NCBI RefSeq assembly: GCF_036492835.1
Contig: NZ_AP025315.1
Location: 372,001 to 436,000, forward strand
Reading direction: 5' to 3'
Source of the DNA: Fulvitalea axinellae
GTDB lineage: Bacteria; Bacteroidota; Bacteroidia; Cytophagales; Cyclobacteriaceae
DNA length: 64,000 nt
The position numbers and the translations under genes are program-made. Below, piece after piece: positions 26,582-40,667 of the stretch (its first letter is position 1; each line of letters starts with the position of its first letter). Under the pieces are notes generated by a model. That model ran no database searches. It was given only the letters and a program-made list of their open reading frames with translations, and was not told the DNA's origin.

Positions 26582-28672
26582 ATGCGAAAAGATTCAATAG
26601 ATCCGATAAATAACGCCATCAAGAAAATAGAAGAAGCTTTACAGATAACTTTAGAGGAAGACAATAGTGAGCTGGTGCAGGAGCATACATATAAGTGTTA
26701 TAGTGACAGAAGGATTGATAACCTAAGCTTTTCTAATCTTACCTTTGAAAATTTCGATGCTTTGGCACCGGTATTTCGGATGGTAAATCATCTGAAATTC
26801 GTTAACTGCACGATAAAAAACGTATCGGAACTGCTGAAATTAAGATACGTAAACCACCTAACCTTGGACGGGGTAACCTTAGAGGACATTTATAGTCCGG
26901 ATGTAACGCCAGCCGACACGAGGAAATGTCATTTTCAGGTAGTGGACTTCATAAATATGGACGTCAAACACATTAGCTGTATACGTTCCATTTCCAAAAA
27001 TTTAGAATATCTGCATTTCACAAACTGCAGGCTCTGGAATTTTTATGAGTTAAACCTATTGCCTAAGTTATATTCTTTAAACCTGACAAACGTTTTTATC
27101 CACAAAAGCCCCGACGATATTATCCATAAGACTGATTTAGGGACTACGTTCCTAAGCTTTCATGAAATGGAGATTAATGATTTCAATTTTTTTTTACCGA
27201 TCGTGGGGAATGCCAAAATCATGGACCTATATGCTAGTGCAGTAAAAAGCTTAGAGGGAATCTTGAACTTTCCAAAGCTGGAAATGCTCAATATTGACGT
27301 CGCAACCACCGTAGAGGTAATGACTCCTCCTAGGGAAACGAAGCCTTACAGACTCAAGGAATGCTCCATTGATAATATCGAGTCCGAAGATGATGATATG
27401 GAGTCAATCAACCGGCCTGTTTTCGATTTACGGACTTTGGCTTCTATCTCTCCAAATATAGGAGGATTGAAATTAGACCAGTACCATTTATCCAATTTGG
27501 ATTTTCTGGAACAGTTTATTCAGTTGGATACTTTAGAAATCAAACAAAGTAAAGTCGATTTCAATGATTTTCTTCCTGTTGCTCATCAGATTATTAATCT
27601 TGACCTCGATACCTGCAAGCTTAAAAATACGGCGAGTCTAAAGCATTATAAGCGTTTAGAACTCATAGAGGTAAGGGACGGGTATTTTCACGGAAAAGAG
27701 ATCAAAACGCTGAATAAGCTCAAACGTCTTTTGCCTTTGAAGAACCATCTTAAAAAATTATGTATTTGGGAGAATGATATAAAAGGCATTAAGCATATAG
27801 AAAAATTTACAGCTTTGGAGTCGCTATTGCTGTTAGATGCCTCGGTAAGAAATACGGAGCGTATATTTTCAATGCCTTCCCTAAAAAGGTTGAATATCAG
27901 CATTGAGAATAAACAAAAATGTACTTTTAATTTAAAAGGCATACGGAATATAGAATGGCTGGTGGTGCATGCCGACAAGAAGGTGAAGCTTAAGGGGTTG
28001 AAACACCTTAAGCGTTTGGAAAGGCTGGAGCTTGAAGAATATAAATCCAGTGCCCGAAATATACATCGCCTTAAAGCTTTAAAGTATTTTAAATGCAATT
28101 CGGTAACAGATATCAATAAAGTGGGTACCATTAAGACACTCCAAACCTTGGTGCTTGACATCTCCGAAGAGTATAATGTGAAAGGTTTGGAGCAATTCCC
28201 CAATTTGGAGTATTTGTCGATACGGGGAGGTGGAGAAATCTCTTTGGGCAAGATGGAAAAACTGAAAGTGCTGGATATGGAGGGTGGATATCCGGAAAAA
28301 ATGGATTTCCTAACGAACCTTCCAAACTTGGAGAAACTTGATTTGGGATTGAATGGCTTTAAAGAGGTTCCTAACCTTGAAACGTTGACTAACCTTAGGG
28401 TTTTAAGTCTTGCCGAAAATAGTATCGAGAATATAGAAGGGCTACAACATTTGAAGCGCCTGGAACAGTTGAATTTATTTTGTAACGATATTTCTGATAT
28501 TCGGATACTTAACACATTGCCTAACCTAAAAGAGGTAAACCTAGCGGGTAATCCGATTGCATTGGAAAAGAAAGACATTAAAGCCCAACTCAAAAAAACT
28601 GAAATAGCGATTTTCTACAGCCTACCTTATGTGCCTTTTAGGATATGGAAAAACGATTATTTCAATGTCTAA
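26582..28672 (+). CDS. Leucine-rich-repeat protein (SDS22/internalin-like LRRs)
   Basis: The 696-residue protein has no signal peptide, so it is probably cytoplasmic. Degenerate LRRs run through most of the chain and become canonical at the C-terminus (LEKLDLGLNGFKEVPNLETL, LRVLSLAENSIENIEGL, LEQLNLFCNDISDIRIL, LKEVNLAGNPIALEKK; about 580-680). The 22-residue spacing is SDS22-like. LRRs bind protein partners. The gene converges on the DUF4132/ubiquitin-like locus and ends before a shared terminator. A functional link to that locus is only positional. Confidence 0.8.
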   Translation: MRKDSIDPINNAIKKIEEALQITLEEDNSELVQEHTYKCYSDRRIDNLSFSNLTFENFDALAPVFRMVNHLKFVNCTIKNVSELLKLRYVNHLTLDGVTLEDIYSPDVTPADTRKCHFQVVDFINMDVKHISCIRSISKNLEYLHFTNCRLWNFYELNLLPKLYSLNLTNVFIHKSPDDIIHKTDLGTTFLSFHEMEINDFNFFLPIVGNAKIMDLYASAVKSLEGILNFPKLEMLNIDVATTVEVMTPPRETKPYRLKECSIDNIESEDDDMESINRPVFDLRTLASISPNIGGLKLDQYHLSNLDFLEQFIQLDTLEIKQSKVDFNDFLPVAHQIINLDLDTCKLKNTASLKHYKRLELIEVRDGYFHGKEIKTLNKLKRLLPLKNHLKKLCIWENDIKGIKHIEKFTALESLLLLDASVRNTERIFSMPSLKRLNISIENKQKCTFNLKGIRNIEWLVVHADKKVKLKGLKHLKRLERLELEEYKSSARNIHRLKALKYFKCNSVTDINKVGTIKTLQTLVLDISEEYNVKGLEQFPNLEYLSIRGGGEISLGKMEKLKVLDMEGGYPEKMDFLTNLPNLEKLDLGLNGFKEVPNLETLTNLRVLSLAENSIENIEGLQHLKRLEQLNLFCNDISDIRILNTLPNLKEVNLAGNPIALEKKDIKAQLKKTEIAIFYSLPYVPFRIWKNDYFNV

Positions 28673-28797: not shown

Positions 28798-31407
28798 CTA
28801 TTTTTCGGACTGTACCTGTGGCCTTATTTGGCTTAAAATTGTCGGATCCTTTATTTTATGGTCTTCCGCCAATAAGAACGCTTTTGACAACACCAAAGAC
28901 AAACCATGGTCTCCCTCAAATGGCACGAATATCTTTTCGGTTATATCCTTCTTACCTCTTGATTGAACAATACACAGATACTCTTCATTGGGTTCCATTA
29001 AGATATTAGAGCTTCCTATATGGATCTTATATGTTCTGTATTTTCCTTTTACCACTAAGAATCTGCCCTCTACCCTAGCGACTTTATTGATTTTAAGCCT
29101 AGGAATCAGGCGCTCCAATAAATCTTTCCTAGTTTGGGAAATCTCTGATAAATCTCCGAAAAGATAACTGCGCCAATATGATTGTACTTCCGGAGTAACT
29201 CCGGAATCTTGCCATTCTGGATCATTGCCAACGCTGGCCACCCCTACAAAAAGATCAACGTCACGCATGATTTCAGAAAACACAACCGCAGGTATATCAA
29301 TCAGGCTTATTGTATCGTCCGAATCGATTTTCAGAAAACGTACTTGGTCAGTACTCACATAGGCCAATATTCCCGAATCTGTAACCCCGTGGTCTGTTTC
29401 CACGCCACTTGTCCAAAATTGGGCCTTTAGCCCGTGTTCGGGCAGAAGTATTTCCGCAAAATCAGACGCTTGATAATCCCACGCTCCGGTTAGTTCCGCT
29501 TTCCAACCACGCACTCTTGCCAAATTCACATATTGGTGCTGTTTTAAAATGTGCGCGGCCATACGGTTACTGTATAATCCGGTATCTTTCTCGGCGTCGG
29601 TGAGTATATACACTTCTCTGTATGCCTGCTTTACCGGTTGGCGTATCTCGTTGTTTACCAAAAAATCTCGCCAAGCACCTACCTCTTCTACGGAAGCGAT
29701 GGATGGATGCCATAATTTCACGGTATCATTTTCCGATGGCGCAAACACTTCGCCTTTTGCGTCTATCCATTTCTTTCCAAAGTAGATTCCTATACGGGTA
29801 GAAATATTCGTATTTTCAAAAACCCATATCAGTCGTTTGGTAAAAAAGGAAATCAATCCGTGTTCCAGATATTGTTTTTCAAAATTGACCCAAGCCCATT
29901 TTCTATCGGACCTAAACATTCTGTCTATCCTGTCTCTTTGTGTCGCACTGGTTTGGTCCAACTGTTTTTTTGAAGCTTTTAGCTTCTTAAGCTGATCAGC
30001 AAAGTCCTTTTTCACGAAAGCGGGAACGGTTTTTTGCTGTGAGCCATCTGGTTTATACCAATGAATAGATGACTTTCCGGGACCGTCGAATTCCAAAGAA
30101 GCCCGGTAATCCGAAAAATGAAATTCTGATTTCCCGTTTACCAAACCAAAATCGTCTACGGCCAAGTCCGCTATTTCGTCAAGGGTTAGTCCCATTTCTT
30201 TGGCTGTGATTCCCAAAAACTTCTCAATAGTTTTTTTGCCGCTCGCTTGTTTGATCCTGATGCTTAACCTAGCTAATTGGGCGACTCCTTCAAGGACTTC
30301 GAATCTGGATAACGCAAATATGCAGGCATTGCCCAAAGCCGCCGACAAAGCGCCTATTTGAGGATATTTTTTATAACAACGTTCGGTAAGGTTACCTAAA
30401 TCAAATGCCAAGGCTGCGTTATTGCACAATGCGGTAGTCCAGATTATACCTTTCAGTATATCTATATTCGGAGGAATAATGAAATCGTAATATTGCTCTT
30501 GATACGTATATCCGGATCGGTGGATATCCAAAGTGATCAGCTCCGGTTTGATCCCCAAAATATGTTTTACCCATTCGGAAATACCAGTTATGAATTCTTC
30601 TTTACCTATCGAATCTACAATTGGCTGTGCCAGTTCCAAGTATTTCGCTTTGGGTTGCGCTCCTTTCGCTGTTTTTGCCAATGCTATCAAACGAAACCAA
30701 TCGGAACGTTTTTTATCCGAAGCCAAACCGTCTAGCCATTTTCTGGAATAAAGGGCGAAACTGTCTTCTCCCATAAAATACTCCGGCTTCACTCCTTCCG
30801 GATGTTCTTCATCCGACAAGATCTCATCAATCAATTCCAGACACCGGAATTGGTTATTCAGATCAAGATAACTGTATTGTTTTCTAATACTGTCAGCGAG
30901 TGCGTTCAAAGCCTTTACCGTATTTTCACTCGGCAGGCGATCTTTATAACGGGGTTTGATGTTATTTAAAAATGTACTTATTGGCCATGACGATACTATA
31001 TATGGCTCCCAGCACCTTGAATGTCGTATAGAACCCAATATTTTGGCTACCTCATCTTCATTAGCCGAAGAAGCCAGCGAAGGTTCCCCCAAAAAGAATA
31101 TCGCATAAGAAATAGCTGTCGTAACGCTTCGGTCTTTTTCCGTTGAGGTGGGATGGTGACTTACCACAGGATTCAGGTCATTCCTGCCGATATTGACGCA
31201 GTACAGTAAGAATTCAATTTTTTGGCTATCAGGCCAACTTTTGATATGGTTTTTATATTCTGGTAAAGCCCAGATATCTTTACGTTCATAGTATCTCTTC
31301 CACCCTCCATGGACAGGCGGAAGGGAGTTTATAATGGAAGATTTGAATAGGTTTAACTTATCGTCATTGAATGACAGTCGATATTTTTCTTGATCTAAAA
31401 AATTCAT
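28798..31407 (-). CDS. DUF4132 (MolR-like) protein, 869 residues
   Basis: The C-terminal third matches DUF4132. The cues are the helical linker LKKLKASKKQLDQ and an RMFRSDRKWAWVNFEKQYLEHGL segment (about 510-540). They continue with the IRQPVKQAYREVYILTDAE motif (about 607-625), FSEIMRDVDLFVGVASVGND (about 735-754) and a terminal FVPFEGDHGLSLVLSKAFLLAEDHKIKDPTI. All recur in the 1704-residue neighbour. The N-terminal part is helical, HEAT-like. Function of DUF4132 is unknown. The gene lies 143 bases downstream of a Gly-Gly-ending beta-grasp protein on the same strand, forming a two-gene module. Confidence 0.85.
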   Translation of the reverse strand: MNFLDQEKYRLSFNDDKLNLFKSSIINSLPPVHGGWKRYYERKDIWALPEYKNHIKSWPDSQKIEFLLYCVNIGRNDLNPVVSHHPTSTEKDRSVTTAISYAIFFLGEPSLASSANEDEVAKILGSIRHSRCWEPYIVSSWPISTFLNNIKPRYKDRLPSENTVKALNALADSIRKQYSYLDLNNQFRCLELIDEILSDEEHPEGVKPEYFMGEDSFALYSRKWLDGLASDKKRSDWFRLIALAKTAKGAQPKAKYLELAQPIVDSIGKEEFITGISEWVKHILGIKPELITLDIHRSGYTYQEQYYDFIIPPNIDILKGIIWTTALCNNAALAFDLGNLTERCYKKYPQIGALSAALGNACIFALSRFEVLEGVAQLARLSIRIKQASGKKTIEKFLGITAKEMGLTLDEIADLAVDDFGLVNGKSEFHFSDYRASLEFDGPGKSSIHWYKPDGSQQKTVPAFVKKDFADQLKKLKASKKQLDQTSATQRDRIDRMFRSDRKWAWVNFEKQYLEHGLISFFTKRLIWVFENTNISTRIGIYFGKKWIDAKGEVFAPSENDTVKLWHPSIASVEEVGAWRDFLVNNEIRQPVKQAYREVYILTDAEKDTGLYSNRMAAHILKQHQYVNLARVRGWKAELTGAWDYQASDFAEILLPEHGLKAQFWTSGVETDHGVTDSGILAYVSTDQVRFLKIDSDDTISLIDIPAVVFSEIMRDVDLFVGVASVGNDPEWQDSGVTPEVQSYWRSYLFGDLSEISQTRKDLLERLIPRLKINKVARVEGRFLVVKGKYRTYKIHIGSSNILMEPNEEYLCIVQSRGKKDITEKIFVPFEGDHGLSLVLSKAFLLAEDHKIKDPTILSQIRPQVQSEK

Positions 31408-31550
31408 GTCAAAAGTATTTTCAATAGATGATATACCTTGTGAAGCAAAATATAAAAGGACTTAAAAGTACTGGCGGTACAAGGTTGGTAACAGGTAGTT
31501 TATCGCTCGGGAATTATAAACTTATACTGTCAGGCACGAAAAGTAAAAGC

Positions 31551-31937
31551 CTAACCTCCTACCAAAGAAACTAACTTTATGAACGTTACAACGGTATCGG
31601 GTTTTAACTTGACAAGGGTTTCCAAGCTTTCGGGCTGAACATTATCTACAAGTATGAAAAAACCATTTTTCTGATAAGCGTCCAACGCTACGTAGACTTG
31701 CTTTTCGGCATCGAGATACTTCTTGCCTTTCGGGCCGTTAAGGAGGCTTTCCTTTTTTTCCGGCTGTATCAAGCGGTTATGATGCACATTATTTGAATCA
31801 TTTTTTAGAGCAACTTCTCTTTTTACTCTTTCCGTAATAATGTCTTTTACTGTGACCTCTTCCGCATCAAACTCGAAGGTCTGCTCTTGTATTCCTATCC
31901 CCGACAGGTTCTCGTCTTTTATTGTAACTCTCATCAT
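31551..31937 (-). CDS. MoaD/ThiS/ubiquitin-like beta-grasp protein ending in Gly-Gly
   Basis: The 128-residue protein looks like an enlarged beta-grasp (Ubl) fold. It has a beta hairpin (MRVTIKDENLSG, then QTFEFDAEEV), a helix (VKDIITERVKREVAL) and an inserted Lys/Asn-rich segment (about 48-80). The C-terminal block FILVDNVQPESLETLVKLK precedes PDTVVTFIKLVSLVGG. The end mimics ThiS/MoaD (valine-rich strand then Gly-Gly at 127-128, directly before the stop). Such tails are adenylated and conjugated or thiocarboxylated by E1-like enzymes; none lies in this window. It is homologous to the 157-residue protein encoded divergently. Confidence 0.7.
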   Translation of the reverse strand: MMRVTIKDENLSGIGIQEQTFEFDAEEVTVKDIITERVKREVALKNDSNNVHHNRLIQPEKKESLLNGPKGKKYLDAEKQVYVALDAYQKNGFFILVDNVQPESLETLVKLKPDTVVTFIKLVSLVGG

Positions 31938-32311
31938 TTCCCTTTAGTGAAAAACCAGTTATCAAGCCCCCATATTTCGTAATCGCAAGAACGGAAATTA
32001 TTGTTTTTTCATTGTCACGGTTTATGGGGTAAAAATTGAGGATCATTCAGTAGTGATAAGGGGTCGTCTTAAAAGCTAAAAATCACTTAAAACCATAATT
32101 ATACATTGAAGATATTGGGAAGAACGTAATCCTAAATATTTTTTAGAAAAAACGATAGGCGTGGTTTGTTTATATACGACTCTAGAAAGAAATGATAAAT
32201 AATGTGGCAAAAAAGAGCACAAACCTGTATGTTGCATATATTTTATTGCTAAATACTACTAATGATCGTGATCGCATTCCAATCAATTTTCGCTAAGAGA
32301 AAAACGATATT
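31938..32311. promoter_or_regulatory. Divergent promoter region of the two Ubl-DUF4132 modules
   Basis: This 374-base AT-rich region separates the two divergent modules and must carry both promoters. No convincing consensus promoter was recognised. A GATCGTGATCG near-palindrome occurs around 32263-32275 and could be a regulator site. No RNA or ORF was supported. Confidence 0.55.
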
Positions 32312-32785
32312 ATGAGACTTCTTTTTACAATAAAACAGGTAGGCAAGCGAAAACCATTTTTGTCCAAAAAAGAGATAATCTTTCCAGATGCTGAAGCCAA
32401 GGAGTATTCCTTAGAGGAACTATTAACAATTATAGTGCATCAACAAGTCAGGGTATTTAATGAAAAAAGGGAAGAGCTGATTCTTTCCAGGCTTTTGGAG
32501 GGTTCTGGAGTTACGCTTGAGAATCCAAAGAGTAACGTTTTATCCAAAAAGAAAATTGACGATCAAGCAATCTCCGGAAAAGTGACTTTTGGCGATATGG
32601 AAAACCTAAAACTGGCCGATGTGCAAGAGGCTATTGAAACCATGAAGCTTGCCATCAAAGACGGACTGGTAGCGATTTTCCATAACGGCGAGCAATTAGA
32701 CTTGTTAACGGATAGACTCCAAGTAAAGGATTTTGACGAGTTCACTTTTGTGCGACTTACCTTTTTGGCGGGAAGTACTTATTGA
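32312..32785 (+). CDS. MoaD/ThiS/ubiquitin-like beta-grasp protein, capped tail
   Basis: The 157-residue protein shares the order of the 128-residue neighbour. It has strand MRLLFTIKQVG, strand KEIIFPDAE, helix SLEELLTIIVHQQV and an insertion (about 55-100). The C-terminal block GLVAIFHNGEQLDLLTDRL ends in DEFTFVRLTFLAGSTY. The NGE-loop and final strand are MoaD/ThiS-like. The tail has AGSTY instead of Gly-Gly, so it cannot be conjugated without processing, or is a non-conjugated paralogue. It lies 100 bases before the large DUF4132 gene on the same strand. Confidence 0.65.
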   Translation: MRLLFTIKQVGKRKPFLSKKEIIFPDAEAKEYSLEELLTIIVHQQVRVFNEKREELILSRLLEGSGVTLENPKSNVLSKKKIDDQAISGKVTFGDMENLKLADVQEAIETMKLAIKDGLVAIFHNGEQLDLLTDRLQVKDFDEFTFVRLTFLAGSTY

Positions 32786-32885
32786 GCATCAATTCTTTTT
32801 TAGGCGATAAGTACTTTTTGAGTAACAAGTCATAACCCCACAACAGTTGGTTTGAATATTATTTTATGTATTTCAGTTTATTGAT

Positions 32886-35800
32886 ATGGACAAGAGTTTT
32901 TTAGAGACAAGGTTGAAAACCGCTTATTTCAGTGGTTTGAGGAAGGATATTTTTAATAATAATGAAAGAGAAGGAATTAGGTTAAGTAAAGAACACAAGC
33001 AATTCATTCAAGATCTGATCGATCCCAAAAGGAAAGGTAAGGGAGAAGAAAATTACCATGACTTATATCTGCAAGAGGGCCATGAGAAAGTGCGCCATTA
33101 TGCGGAATTATTGGATCGGTTAGATACCGATAATAGTTTTGACGGTGAGTATTTCAATATATTGGAATATTGTTTTGGTAAGGAATACGCTACTTATTTG
33201 GCAACATTTTTTAGAAAGATGCCTTCCTTGCCTTACCTCACAGGTTGGGAAAGGAAAAGTTTCCGGATTACTTACACGGAAAATGAGGATATTAGAAGAA
33301 GGATCTTTGCCAAGCAACTTAATTTTTTGGTTGAGGCTATAATAAACAATAAATACGACCTGACGCTTGAGGAACTCGTAGCGAACAGTAATGATTATCA
33401 CCTCAGCTCCTTCCCTATAGCCGAACTTTTAGCTGGAGCGATCAATAATGGCAATACGCAGATAGAGCGACTGCTTATAGATATAGTAATGGGAAACCAT
33501 GAAACTTATAAAGTAAGCAGAGAGGTCCTTAAGGCTTTACTTTTTTCCGAATCCAGAGAAGGTATCGAAGCGATAAAAAAGTTGCTTGTAGCCGCGCAAC
33601 GACAAGAAGGCTTGCGCCAAACAATCCTGGAAGTGGTTGACCAATGTTCGATAGAAGTATTTAAAGAGTTCATCATACTAATCAATAGGGAGCAAATGTA
33701 CCGTTTTGCGGCGGTGGTCAGAGCGTTTGATGTATGGACGGGCTTAATGATCAGTGCCGAAAAACAGAGCCTTGTAAAAAGGTGCTTTCAGTTGGCCGAA
33801 CACTTTTTGGAGGAACCCGATACTATTCCCGGCGCTATCATGAGTAACGATAGTATTGAGGCTTATTTGGCGCTTTGGGCTTGCGCTTCGGAGAACTCAG
33901 GTCTTGAATTAGGTCAATATCTCTCGACGTTAGCGGAAGATGAAAAGTCGCAAAGAAAGCTGCTGGCGTTTTATTTGGCCAAAATGACTCAAATTGATCC
34001 GTATAAAAAATTGGTATCGCAAAATAACCTGGATCACCCCGATATTTCGGTAAAGATAGGCGCATTAGATCTTTACAACGAGTTTGTGAAGGAGGTATCC
34101 GAACAAGAGAAAAAAGACTACATACGCATTTGTTCCGAAATTATTACGGAGATTCCTAAGGACGGTATTGGGCTAAATACGAAATTATTCGCCTGGCAAG
34201 AAAGAAGAGTTAAGTCTTCCGAGATAATTTGGCTTATGTCTAACGCATTGGACTATGGCAAGGAGAGCGATTGTGAATTGATTTATCCTATATATGATCT
34301 GGTTGACGCCGATGCCAGATCAATCATAGTTAATAAAATATTGCCATACACTTACTTCAAAGGATACAATATTAAACCACACCAAAGAAGCTTTGCTTTC
34401 AGGATATTAACCGACAAATCGTCTTATATCAGAGAACGGGCGCTGGAAACCATTAAAAAAACGGAAATCAAGCAGGATGAGCTCCCGGTATTTGTCAGCT
34501 TGCTTAAAGGTAAATCCCAATCCGTAAAAGACGCTGTTTATAAAATTATTTTTGACAAAAATAAACAATACAAACTCTGGGTAACGGATAGCTTACTGAG
34601 CAAAAAGTCAATAGAGCAACGACTTGTCGGATTGGATTATCTTTTAAAATTGAAAAGCGGGGAATCCGATTTGGATAAGACAATAACGGGGCAGGAAGGT
34701 ATTGGGCTTAATACGGATACTACTTTTAGACAATGGATTGAATCCAAAACAGCCCAATTCATACAAAACCGCCCGAAGCCTACCGCAAAAGAAAAGGACG
34801 CTTTGGCCCTATTGCAATCCCATGGTAAGGAAGACGCAGAAGCGACTTACGCCAATGGATACGGAAAATTGTATGACCCTTCTAAAGTGACTCTGCTGCA
34901 GGATGATAAAGTAAATAAAGACACTCTTAAGGGAATTATTCAAGAGAATGGAATTCCTGTATTGTATAAAGACCATACGCTTAACGAATACTATACGGAC
35001 AGTTTTAGGCCCTCCAAATCAATTGAAGATATAAATAAGGATATCCGCACTCTTTATGACTTGTTTGTCAACAACTTCGATTTTGAATACACAAGCGTAA
35101 GCGAATGGGGATCGGAAGTATGTTTGTTGTCGAATGGGTTTAAATATCTAGTCCGTGAAACGGATTCGGACAAAGATGAATTCGTTCTGGAGAACTATCC
35201 TTTGGCTGAAGTTTGGGATGAATGGTACGCCAATTCGGGACTCACTCCGTTGGATTTGTGTTTTATTTCTTTAAACAATAAAGAAAGGATAGACGAAAAA
35301 AGTCCCGGTGCCATAAAAAGAAGTTTCAAAAAGACCTTAAGTAATTTAGGCTCTTTTATCCCGGAATATAAAATTGAAACTCCTTATAAATCGAGATATT
35401 ACTATTCTAATCCACTCTATAATATTATACACTTATTAAGCAAAAAATATCCTTATGAAAGAAAAGAGGAGTTTTGGCTGTCTTGTCTCGCTTCGGCATA
35501 TTATGCTGTTGATCCTGAGGAATATAGTTCGAAAATAGAAAGGAAGTATTCGGGAAAAGTCAATTGGACGGGTCTTCCTTTAATGAGCCGTTTACAAAAA
35601 GAAGTTGAAAATTATGATACCCTGAATGACGAACTTTTTAAATCGTATTGGAAGCTTGACAATTGGAGAATAAACTTCCGAAAGTTTGAAGAGCTTAACC
35701 GTGAGGGGATCCGCAATTATAGTTTTTATCTGAGGGCATACGAGTTAGGACTCATTACGGTGGATGACCTTTATTGGAAATCATTCGAAAAAAACGCCGT

Positions 35801-38000
35801 AAGCGTTTTGAGCAGTTCCCGTAAAGTAAAAAGGAATTACTACAGAGAGGTGCTTCAGCCCGAAGATTACGAGCGATATCCTGTATTGAACGAACTGAAA
35901 GAAAACGTTATCAACAGAATCATTCAGATTGAGCTGTCGCGTACGGTGTCTGAGACTTCTGTCACTAAACTGATTACGTCAGTCAATGAAGTGCGGGGTG
36001 TGGATTACCTGTTTGATTTTATCGCCAAATTAGGAAAAGAGAAATTGGTTAGGGGTTATATCTCTTCTTATTCCAATTCGGTTTCCCTAGCCGAAACTAT
36101 GTCGCATTTGATCCGAAACTGCCACCCGAAAACCGATGACACTCAGGCACAATTCAATCAGCATATCAAAAAAAGCAAGCTAACGGACCAGAAGCTTCTC
36201 GACATCGTTATGTATGCGCCACAATGGCTGAACTTTGTCGAAAATTATTTGGGATGGAAGCTATCCTCGGCGGTTTGGTGGCTTCAGGCCCATACCAAAG
36301 ACGATACGACTAACCCTTCCGAAGAGAGTATAGCCATGTATTCGAAGCTTTCCCTGAACGATTTCAGCAATGGCGCTGTAGACGTGGATTGGTTCAAGAA
36401 AGCGTATAAAGAGTTGGGCAAGAAAAAATGGGACATGGTATACAAGTCCTCTAAATTCCTAAGCATGGGAGGACAAAAACGGGCCCAACTATATGCGGAC
36501 GTATTATTGGGTAAAACCAAGATTACCGAAGTAAGGAAAAGAATAGTGGATAAACGTAATCAGGACTATCTGAAAGTATACGGATTGGTGCCTTTGAGCA
36601 AAAAAGTTCCTGAGAAAGACGTATTGAACCGTTATCAGTTCCTGTTGAAATTTTTGAAAGAAAGCAAACAGTTTGGCTCGCAACGACAAGCCAGCGAAAA
36701 GCTTTCGACCCAAATTTCCATGGAGAATCTCGCGCGTACCGCAGGGTATGCCGATCCGATAAGACTTACTTGGGCAATGGAAGCCAAAGAGGCTACGCAG
36801 ATTATGCGAAACTCAGTGGTGGAAATCGATGACGTTAAAGTTCGCATTCAAATAGACAATTCAGGAAATGCGGGATTATTAGTCGAAAAAGCGGGAAAAC
36901 ATCAAAAATCAATACCAGCCAAACTAAGAAAAAATAAAGATATCGAAGCGTTGAAGGCCTCGGTCAAATCGCTGAAAGAACAATACAAAAGAGCGAAAAT
37001 AAGCCTGGAAGAAGCGATGATATCGGGAGACGGTTTTGAATTGTCGGAATTCAGAAATTTAATGGAACACCCCGTAATTCATCCATTGGTCAAAGATTTA
37101 GTATTAGTATCTGGAGAAAAACACGGGTTTTGGAAAAACGGCCAACTCCATACCGCTTTGGACAGGATCTTTGAATTGGCGGACAACGATAAATTAAGCA
37201 TAGCGCACTGTACCGACTTGTACGCAACCGGAGAATGGAGCGACTATCAGAGATATTGTTTTTCCAATAGTGTCAAACAACCGTTCAAGCAAATTTTCCG
37301 TGAACTGTATTTGCCGACAGCGGATGAAAAGCAAGAAAACGACAAGTCTCGTCGATATGCTGGTCACCAAATTCAGGCAAACAAAACTTTGGCTTTGTTA
37401 AAGGGGCGTGGTTGGATAGTCAACCATGACGAAGGACTTCAGAAGATTTTTCATCGGGAAAATTTTATAGTTAGTTTACTGGCTTACGCCGATTGGTTTT
37501 ACCCTAGCGACGTGGAAAGCCCAAGTATCGAAGCGGTAGAATTTTATCAGAAATCATCGTGGAAACGACTGATGATAACGGATATAGACAAAAGGGTTTT
37601 CTCCGAAATTATGAGAGACTTAGATCTGGTAGTATCAGTGGCCCATGTAGGCGATGTTGATCCAGAAACCAGTCAGTCGTCTATGGAATTACGCGGAGCT
37701 ATTGCTAGGGAAACAGCCTCGTTGTTTAAGTTGGACAATGTGGAAGTGAAGGCGAGCAACGTGATAATAAAAGGAGTCCATCAGCAGTATTCATTGCATC
37801 TTGGCAGTGGAGTGGTGCATGTGATGGGAGGAACGGCTATGAATATCCTGCCGGTGCATTCGCAACATCGAGGAAAAATATTCCTCCCGTTTGTTGATGA
37901 GGATCCGAAGACAGCGGAAATCATTTCTAAAATGTTATTGCTTGCCAAAGACGAAAAAATTCAGGACCCTACTATCGTTCAGCAGATAATGAACGCTTAA
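32886..38000 (+). CDS. DUF4132 (MolR-like) protein, 1704 residues
   Basis: The C-terminal region (about 1350-1704) repeats the DUF4132 signatures of the 869-residue paralogue. These are SVKQPFKQIFRELYLPTADE, the FSEIMRDLDLVVSVAHVGD block and the terminal IFLPFVDEDPKTAEIISKMLLLAKDEKIQDPTI. The N-terminal thousand residues form long HEAT/ARM-like helical repeats with clustered Arg/Lys/Glu. No Walker or nuclease motif was seen. It may be a scaffold that recognises a target through its repeats. It follows a Ubl-like gene, mirroring the opposite module. Confidence 0.85.
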   Translation: MDKSFLETRLKTAYFSGLRKDIFNNNEREGIRLSKEHKQFIQDLIDPKRKGKGEENYHDLYLQEGHEKVRHYAELLDRLDTDNSFDGEYFNILEYCFGKEYATYLATFFRKMPSLPYLTGWERKSFRITYTENEDIRRRIFAKQLNFLVEAIINNKYDLTLEELVANSNDYHLSSFPIAELLAGAINNGNTQIERLLIDIVMGNHETYKVSREVLKALLFSESREGIEAIKKLLVAAQRQEGLRQTILEVVDQCSIEVFKEFIILINREQMYRFAAVVRAFDVWTGLMISAEKQSLVKRCFQLAEHFLEEPDTIPGAIMSNDSIEAYLALWACASENSGLELGQYLSTLAEDEKSQRKLLAFYLAKMTQIDPYKKLVSQNNLDHPDISVKIGALDLYNEFVKEVSEQEKKDYIRICSEIITEIPKDGIGLNTKLFAWQERRVKSSEIIWLMSNALDYGKESDCELIYPIYDLVDADARSIIVNKILPYTYFKGYNIKPHQRSFAFRILTDKSSYIRERALETIKKTEIKQDELPVFVSLLKGKSQSVKDAVYKIIFDKNKQYKLWVTDSLLSKKSIEQRLVGLDYLLKLKSGESDLDKTITGQEGIGLNTDTTFRQWIESKTAQFIQNRPKPTAKEKDALALLQSHGKEDAEATYANGYGKLYDPSKVTLLQDDKVNKDTLKGIIQENGIPVLYKDHTLNEYYTDSFRPSKSIEDINKDIRTLYDLFVNNFDFEYTSVSEWGSEVCLLSNGFKYLVRETDSDKDEFVLENYPLAEVWDEWYANSGLTPLDLCFISLNNKERIDEKSPGAIKRSFKKTLSNLGSFIPEYKIETPYKSRYYYSNPLYNIIHLLSKKYPYERKEEFWLSCLASAYYAVDPEEYSSKIERKYSGKVNWTGLPLMSRLQKEVENYDTLNDELFKSYWKLDNWRINFRKFEELNREGIRNYSFYLRAYELGLITVDDLYWKSFEKNAVSVLSSSRKVKRNYYREVLQPEDYERYPVLNELKENVINRIIQIELSRTVSETSVTKLITSVNEVRGVDYLFDFIAKLGKEKLVRGYISSYSNSVSLAETMSHLIRNCHPKTDDTQAQFNQHIKKSKLTDQKLLDIVMYAPQWLNFVENYLGWKLSSAVWWLQAHTKDDTTNPSEESIAMYSKLSLNDFSNGAVDVDWFKKAYKELGKKKWDMVYKSSKFLSMGGQKRAQLYADVLLGKTKITEVRKRIVDKRNQDYLKVYGLVPLSKKVPEKDVLNRYQFLLKFLKESKQFGSQRQASEKLSTQISMENLARTAGYADPIRLTWAMEAKEATQIMRNSVVEIDDVKVRIQIDNSGNAGLLVEKAGKHQKSIPAKLRKNKDIEALKASVKSLKEQYKRAKISLEEAMISGDGFELSEFRNLMEHPVIHPLVKDLVLVSGEKHGFWKNGQLHTALDRIFELADNDKLSIAHCTDLYATGEWSDYQRYCFSNSVKQPFKQIFRELYLPTADEKQENDKSRRYAGHQIQANKTLALLKGRGWIVNHDEGLQKIFHRENFIVSLLAYADWFYPSDVESPSIEAVEFYQKSSWKRLMITDIDKRVFSEIMRDLDLVVSVAHVGDVDPETSQSSMELRGAIARETASLFKLDNVEVKASNVIIKGVHQQYSLHLGSGVVHVMGGTAMNILPVHSQHRGKIFLPFVDEDPKTAEIISKMLLLAKDEKIQDPTIVQQIMNA

Positions 38001-39473: not shown

Positions 39474-40667
39474 CTGACCTTTCGCTCGCCTTTCCTATTG
39501 CAATTTTGGAAATTATATGATAAGTGACCGATTTTTGAAAAATGAAAAGGAGAGACGGATTTGAATTATACACGGATTATCTTATTGCCAGTCGAGGGCA
39601 AGCCACCTCAACAGGGCTCTCAGCATCTTTGGACAATCAGATTCCCCATGATTATTTCAGCGACCTCCTCAAGCAACCGGACATGGACCAAAAGGCTTTT
39701 TGGAAAGAGGTGAAGTCTTTCGCCAGGAGTATTGAGGGCGAAGAGGCGGTTTTGAGTATCGACGATTGCATTGTCCACAAGCCTCATTCCTCGGAAAACG
39801 ACATCGTAGCTTATCATTTCGACCATACTGTAGGCAAAGCGGTCAAAGGGATCAACTCCCTTAACTTTCTTCTGAGCAATACCGTGGAAGGACAAACGGT
39901 TAACTGTCCGGTCGCTTATGAGATCGTCCACAAGACGGTGAAATACATAGACAAGAACGGGAAGGAAAAGCGTAAAAGCGAGAAAACGAAAAATGAGATG
40001 GTACTGGAAGTTTTACACCGTCTAAACTTTCTGAACAAACTGGTTTTCAGGTACATTCTTTTCGATACGTGGTTCACCGCCAGCGATACGCTGAAGTATA
40101 TTCATTACAAGCTCAAGAAGGTTTTCGTTTGCCCGCTGAAGAGCAACAGGAATATAGCAATGAGCGAAAAGGACAAAAACGAGGGCAAATTCATTCACGT
40201 TTCGGATGCGCCTATTGAAAGCGGTCAAGTGAAGCGGGTGTGGGTCAAGGGAGTTGATTTTCCTGTCACGCTCGCCAAACAAGTCTTTACAAACAGGGAC
40301 CGGTCGACCGCGGAACAATGGCTGGTTACCAACGGGGAGAACATGGCTTTCGAGGATATCGTAGCGATCTACCAAAAACGGTGGAAAGTCGAGGAGTTCC
40401 ATAAGTCGCTCAAGCAAAACACGATGTTAGGCAAGTCTCCCACAAAGATGGAGATTACCCAATTGAACCACATCTTCGCTTCCATGATCGCCTACATAAA
40501 ACTGGAAAAACTGAAGGTTAAGGAGAAGCTGAATCACTTTGCGATAAAATCAAAATTGTATTTGAAGATGATAAAGGCTGCCATGGAAGAACTTGACGCC
40601 TTGCGGTCGGCCTGAAATATATTCATTAAGAATCGCTCTCCCAAATGCAGGGAGAGCGAAAGTTCAG
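39474..40667 (+). mobile_element. Insertion sequence in TlpA gene (7-bp TTAATCA duplication)
   Basis: The 1194-bp element has imperfect terminal inverted repeats: CTGACCTTTCGCTCGCC at the left and, complemented, CTGAACTTTCGCTCTCC at the right (two mismatches). It is flanked by TTAATCA copies at 39467-39473 and 40668-40674. It encodes one DDE transposase. The right inverted repeat includes a hairpin (GCTCTCC-CAAATGCA-GGGAGAGC). Deleting the element and one duplication restores TYLIIDKNGKLV in the host gene. Confidence 0.92.
39542..40615 (+). CDS. IS4/IS701-like DDE transposase
   Basis: The 357-residue transposase has VLSIDDCIVHKP as its first catalytic Asp motif (Asp near residue 78), then YHFDHTVGKAVKGINSLNFL. 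A YILFDTWFTASD block carries the second Asp (about 179), and YQKRWKVEEFHKSLKQNTMLG the glutamate-containing Y(2)R(3)E(6)K-like signature (about 280-300). These motifs are typical of IS4/IS701-type DDE transposases, though family subdivision is uncertain. It appears complete and may be active. Confidence 0.9.
   Translation: MKRRDGFELYTDYLIASRGQATSTGLSASLDNQIPHDYFSDLLKQPDMDQKAFWKEVKSFARSIEGEEAVLSIDDCIVHKPHSSENDIVAYHFDHTVGKAVKGINSLNFLLSNTVEGQTVNCPVAYEIVHKTVKYIDKNGKEKRKSEKTKNEMVLEVLHRLNFLNKLVFRYILFDTWFTASDTLKYIHYKLKKVFVCPLKSNRNIAMSEKDKNEGKFIHVSDAPIESGQVKRVWVKGVDFPVTLAKQVFTNRDRSTAEQWLVTNGENMAFEDIVAIYQKRWKVEEFHKSLKQNTMLGKSPTKMEITQLNHIFASMIAYIKLEKLKVKEKLNHFAIKSKLYLKMIKAAMEELDALRSA

Follow-up and report, generated by a model that had tools for sequence, protein, structure and literature searches.

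The question raised by this locus is what a small ubiquitin-like (Ubl) protein does beside a large DUF4132 protein, and what it means that a single genome contains the combination twice. The window (i.e. the whole stretch of DNA analysed, 64,000 nt of Fulvitalea axinellae, NZ_AP025315.1 positions 372,001-436,000) contains two divergent gene pairs at 28798..38000, each comprising a Ubl gene and a gene for a large DUF4132 partner. The features are as follows, with positions numbered from the start of the window.

28798..31407, minus strand: short DUF4132 protein, 869 aa, with a predicted helical-repeat N-terminal half (approximately 13-412), DUF4132 (455-635) and DUF7737 (758-861)
28972..28974, minus strand: Cys812 codon, within the motif YLCIV in DUF7737; the sole invariant cysteine of the short family
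31551..31937, minus strand: type A Ubl, 128 aa, C-terminus ...SLVGG, predicted beta-grasp
31554..31559, minus strand: codons of the Gly-Gly in which the type A Ubl ends, with the stop codon next
31938..32311, no strand: divergent intergenic region of 374 bases, AT-rich (32% G+C), presumed to contain both promoters
32312..32785, plus strand: type B Ubl, 157 aa, C-terminus FLAGSTY, without Gly-Gly; homologous to type A as judged from sequence
32886..38000, plus strand: long partner, 1704 aa, with domain matches to DUF5724, DUF4132 and DUF7737
37842..37844, plus strand: Asn1653 of the long partner, which aligns with Cys812 of the short protein

The Ubl-DUF4132 partnership

DUF4132 and DUF7737 are common to both large proteins, and the type B small protein is homologous to type A by profile comparison, in agreement with the homologies originally proposed. 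The type A protein is predicted to adopt a beta-grasp fold. In the structural comparison that had been suggested for it, MoaD and ubiquitin are nearest, and the top match of the fold search is a chain of molybdopterin synthase. The original assignment of both small proteins as beta-grasp is therefore upheld, for type A by structure prediction and for type B by its homology to type A.

Both modules lie in the AT-rich part of the window, where G+C is 36-47% (16-58 kb); over the first 16 kb most values are 53-58%, and beyond 58 kb they are mixed. Ten neighbours of the modules were scanned with Pfam, three on the 28-kb side and seven on the 38-kb side. Six match leucine-rich-repeat, thioredoxin-like, transposase, AraC, flavodoxin and FAD-binding families, and the other four gave no Pfam match. 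The leucine-rich-repeat protein (696 aa, 26582-28672) is encoded convergently with the short DUF4132 gene, and had no match in the other loci searched. A DDE transposase gene (39542-40615) follows the long module, with a thioredoxin-like gene in between.

Contigs were scanned with short DUF4132 proteins, and the best 80 of 546 matches (Bacteroidota and Pseudomonadota) were kept. Together with further loci and the window these gave 88 distinct loci with a short protein, after L058 (a duplicate of L028) and L103 (a duplicate of L014) had been dropped and with L016, L057, L083 and L115 included beyond the output of the ORF caller. Four of the 88 are cut by a contig end (L082, L091, L107 and L116), leaving 84 informative for the upstream count. 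A survey of DUF4132 neighbourhoods had been set beforehand as a test that could refute the partnership; in this set, built around the best 80 of 546 matches, 78/84 loci, the window included, have a type A gene upstream in the same orientation. Of the 74 gaps to the DUF4132 gene that were measured, 65 do not exceed 60 nt, and none is above 1.3 kb. The six loci lacking an upstream type A gene are L014, L061, L085, L088, L093 and L104. Five of these genomes encode a full-length Ubl ending in LVGG elsewhere; the exception is L104, where a genome search found no LVGG Ubl. The partnership, predicted to be functional from the window itself, is real.

The same pairing of small and large genes recurs in other phyla. 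A type B gene is near the long gene in 13/13 long-type loci (the window, L030-L036, L121, L122 and L126-L128; L037, a 56-aa remnant in genome G295, is excluded), lying directly upstream in 11 and on the downstream side in L035 and L036. No Ubl was found by neighbourhood search beside the large proteins of Nonomuraea or Acetobacter. At L147 a type B Ubl (1414-1839) ending in LAGSYW is followed by a large ORF that leaves the stretch, and the same genome has a stand-alone type A Ubl.

The two proteins also occur together at the level of genomes. An alignment search for the Ubl found it in 11/395 genomes of the phylum, all within the 12 that have DUF7737 in a sample matching it in size and, going by the listed handles, in make-up (Fisher p 1.5e-20, own genome included). 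In the twelfth, G295, the large gene is present only as the 56-aa frame, and one of the 11, G396, has only a remnant of it. Such strict co-occurrence would also be expected if the small protein were a tightly bound subunit or inhibitor in both modules, with Gly-Gly and Cys812 serving as interface residues. Retention of the type B protein, which has no Gly-Gly, with its partner is consistent with this explanation, which we regard as a minority possibility.

DUF7737 is rare, occurring in 6/98 relatives, 12/395 genomes of the phylum and 4/398 genomes around a Moraxella genome, each count including the genome at its centre. This patchiness (own genome included in the first two counts), together with the occurrence of modules on large plasmids or secondary replicons, might suggest anti-phage defence or a toxin-antitoxin module, and Ubl-like conjugation is known in bacterial immunity (PMC10097602). 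Yet there was no convincing PADLOC match (the best being Csx19 for window protein P0003, E 0.014), window protein P0001 had no match in 50,697 phage records, and in five genomes the Ubl gene lies apart from its partner. With the control by a damage repressor described below, a defensive role appears improbable.

C-terminal Gly-Gly, an E1-like gene and Cys812

The type A Ubl ends in Gly-Gly at the stop codon in 76/77 distinct proteins of the relatives, a set derived from the best 80 of 546 matches and others. The window type A protein also ends in this way (LVGG), but its type B protein does not (FLAGSTY). The free C-terminal Gly-Gly of the short-type small proteins, not remarked on originally, is a new observation. 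The one type A exception in the set (L076, 7011-7364) has a frame that stops early. A Gly-Gly at the very end of these proteins is not readily explained if the small protein is simply a bound regulator.

Clustering of neighbouring proteins gave one frequent extra family, ThiF, in 20 loci; the next clusters, which include the RNA-repair genes described below, reach 7. The protein has about 236 aa, and the member tested matched Pfam with E 2.5e-62. Its gene is directly downstream on the same strand, at -4 to +4 nt, in 19 of the 85 distinct loci with enough sequence (three with <600 bases downstream were omitted), and not directly downstream in the other 66, the window among them. Some relatives thus have a ThiF/MoeB-type E1-like gene within the operon, which is also new, and which again is not readily accounted for by a non-covalent regulator. 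Alignment of 18 of the ThiF proteins revealed 20 invariant positions, including a GGLG motif and one cysteine, both of which we take to be catalytic. Four operon enzymes were tested; MoeB/ThiF models come nearest, yet none of the four reaches any NCBIfam cut-off. A Pfam scan of 23 neighbour proteins recognised no E2 and no JAB gene.

It had been noted that no E1 gene lies in the window, so that any activating enzyme would be encoded elsewhere. This agrees with our search, in which the genome gave three ThiF-family matches (41%, 39% and 33%), all on other contigs. These are candidate activating enzymes; the two best have 377 and 357 aa, and the second domain of each looks by eye like rhodanese.

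ThiF/MoeB enzymes also serve sulfur carriers, and MoaE and ThiG are the acceptor enzymes for the sulfur carriers MoaD and ThiS. The adenylated Ubl might be converted to a C-terminal thiocarboxylate, with the DUF4132 protein as the acceptor enzyme sulfurating RNA, a cofactor or a metabolite. The molybdopterin synthase fold match, the MoeB/ThiF models nearest to the four operon enzymes (albeit below the NCBIfam cut-offs) and the apparent rhodanese domains are all in its favour. By contrast, MoaE or ThiG chemistry is not known to account for a conserved cysteine in the large partner, and in the Bacteroidota long type the partnership persists although the Gly-Gly is gone, a loss that would abolish sulfur carriage. 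On balance we consider this explanation a serious rival, as likely as that of a bound regulator but less so than the scheme proposed below.

The cysteine in question is Cys812, the only one invariant in the short large proteins (76/76 in the alignment, where the runner-up is present in 62/76); it is kept in 86/86 short rows. Among 102 rows a cysteine occupies this position in 87/87 pairs whose Ubl ends in GG, i.e. 81 short, 4 Deinococcus long and 2 distant pairs; in five of the 81 the Ubl is located elsewhere in the genome. Neither GG nor cysteine is present in 8/8 Bacteroidota long pairs, including the plus-strand module of the window (Asn, FLAGSTY). This association is a further new finding. 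Cys812 is kept despite a truncated Ubl in one short pair (L076) and in four short rows with no Ubl known (L082, L091, L104 and L107). Where no Ubl was found, Nonomuraea has kept the cysteine and Acetobacter has Phe in its place. The association is not simply one of short versus long proteins, since both features are kept in the Deinococcus proteins, which group with the long ones. It does represent few evolutionary events, because the Bacteroidota long proteins form a single clade. Note that Cys812 could be structural rather than catalytic.

The two modules had been thought to result from duplication and inversion of a single unit. A recent event of this kind is not borne out; they differ in size, in the C-terminus of the small protein, in the cysteine and in clade. 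A tree was built from 102 C-terminal halves by a quick method, after removal of L116 and other rows no longer than 600 aa; some of its branches are long. The 12 long proteins in it form one supported group, which divides into 4 Deinococcus and 8 Bacteroidota rows. The short protein of the window has a long branch, and the 40 rows with which it groups include 15 of the 19 ThiF-linked ones. The window holds one member of each of two old clades, which are also found separately, and the modules did not arise by local duplication.

We suggest that the minus-strand pair may be a module for Ubl activation and transfer. The 128-aa beta-grasp protein would be made with its C-terminal Gly-Gly ready for use and be adenylated by an E1-like ThiF/MoeB enzyme, a dedicated operon enzyme in some relatives and probably a housekeeping MoeB-type enzyme in the window genome. 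Its C-terminus would then pass, as a thioester, to Cys812 in the DUF4132-DUF7737 protein and from there to a target. In the predicted structure of the short protein, helical repeats form the first half and DUF4132/DUF7737 the second. The repeats may hold the substrate, so that the protein would stand in for E2 and E3. A fold search with the model, including its N-terminal half, found no solved relative of the C-terminal half. Adenylation, thioester, transfer, targets and physiological role are parts that we infer, and we favour the scheme as a whole tentatively, at somewhat below an even chance. The plus-strand pair, a long DUF5724-type relative, probably forms a non-covalent complex, since Gly-Gly is missing from its Ubl and a cysteine from the aligned position of its large protein. 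The original suggestion that the Ubl proteins act as non-covalent regulators may thus hold for the plus-strand module, while the minus-strand one seems to have what covalent chemistry would require.

The Deinococcus radiodurans pair and a possible link to damage

In a D. radiodurans record trxC and a DUF99 gene flank a homologous pair. The pair appears to be DRA0165-DRA0166, judged from the domains and the published gene order, in which DR_A0164 (Trx1) is followed by DRA0165 and then by the DUF4132 protein DRA0166. Two YeeE/YedE-family genes and trxC directly precede the pair (L121, 5787-7316), a possible link to sulfur, and thiamine genes including thiS are located about 4-5 kb downstream. 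YeeE/YedE proteins are linked to sulfur uptake. These surroundings speak for the sulfur-carrier alternative, but sulfur-related neighbours were seen in this one species only.

According to PMC8533742 the DRA0165-DRA0166 operon is a target of DdrO and strongly upregulated on its depletion, and mitomycin C raises DRA0166 protein in an IrrE-dependent manner. It is this regulation by a damage repressor that argues against a defence module. PMC9650054 reports that DRA0165 is raised by gamma rays and H2O2, that Trx1 binds it, and that it has a predicted likeness to molybdopterin synthase, again as would suit a sulfur carrier. The deletion mutant survives H2O2 better, which is the opposite of a protective role. 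The same source states that DRA0165 has no RDRM site, whereas PMC8533742 lists one, and that it is restricted to the Deinococcus family, in conflict with our profile matches. DRA0165 tagged at either end co-purifies the same 157 proteins (PMC9650054). A C-terminal tag blocks the Gly-Gly, so these contacts need no free C-terminus, as would be expected of a non-covalent regulator.

RNA-repair genes recur near the modules, which is suggestive; a gene of RtcB, RtcA, RlaP or PNKP-like type is present in the flanks of 10/106 loci searched (9 without the L108/L139 duplicate), and none was found in the window. This too could be taken in favour of a sulfur carrier acting on RNA. Upstream of the long module in one genus (L030, L032 and L033) there are two genes of the RlaP family and one for a PNKP-like kinase-phosphatase. 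In L076 (5935-6951) and L104 (5294-6310) the module is separated from a divergent RtcB gene by a WYL-regulator gene, assigned by Pfam in the former and by 65% identity in the latter.

Both modules probably serve a response to damage, be it to DNA, oxidative or to RNA. In its broadest form our proposal is that DUF4132-DUF7737 proteins might be a new class of Ubl transfer enzyme, in which one helical-repeat protein with a single catalytic cysteine does the work of both E2 and E3. It would receive the Ubl from a MoeB-type E1 and, after genotoxic or oxidative damage, mark proteins with it (perhaps the machinery of RNA repair or translation). The Bacteroidota sister clade would have lost this chemistry, Gly-Gly and cysteine at once, while retaining a non-covalent complex, and one genome has both types back to back. 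Taken as a whole this is a possibility well short of an even chance.

Comparison with known systems

In line with the original remark, no published Ubl-DUF4132 system was found in the open-licence literature searched. In that literature three papers, PMC9334617 among them, mention DUF4132 or DUF5724, and none mentions DUF7737 or the Pfam accessions.

The type A modules share the predicted beta-grasp fold, the C-terminal Gly-Gly and a ThiF/MoeB-type E1-like enzyme with the sulfur carriers MoaD/ThiS and their MoeB/ThiF enzymes. They differ in that the partner is a DUF4132-DUF7737 protein instead of MoaE or ThiG, and in that the four operon enzymes tested score under all the NCBIfam cut-offs. Activation of a Ubl or protein C-terminus by an E1-like enzyme is also a feature of BilABCD, operon class 6d (Iyer 2006) and CBASS Cap2. 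However, BilABCD and class 6d have E2 and JAB genes, where none was recognised here in the 23 neighbours scanned; here a large DUF4132 protein stands in the second position. If our proposal is correct, bacterial Ubl systems extend to ones without recognised E2 or JAB genes.

E. coli YehI has a DUF4132 region with approximately 22-23% identity over query residues 348-654, but the match stops short of DUF7737. YehI is located with MoxR, DUF5682, VWA and SWIM genes, and there were no MoxR, DUF5682 or VWA genes among the ten window neighbours scanned with Pfam. No small gene is listed directly before YehI in the PLSDB tables, which are incomplete.

The pairing looks like an undescribed bacterial system for protein tagging or sulfur carriage, linked to damage responses. 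DUF4132, a domain without established function, gains a near-obligate Ubl partner and a testable chemistry. The closest studied example is DRA0165-DRA0166, the homologous pair whose locus names we take from gene order, and which is reported to be damage-induced; PMC8533742 and PMC9650054 each deal mainly with one of its two genes. As this pair is reported to be damage-induced and both proteins have already been tagged in those studies, D. radiodurans, which is tractable in the laboratory, offers an immediate test of the hypothesis.
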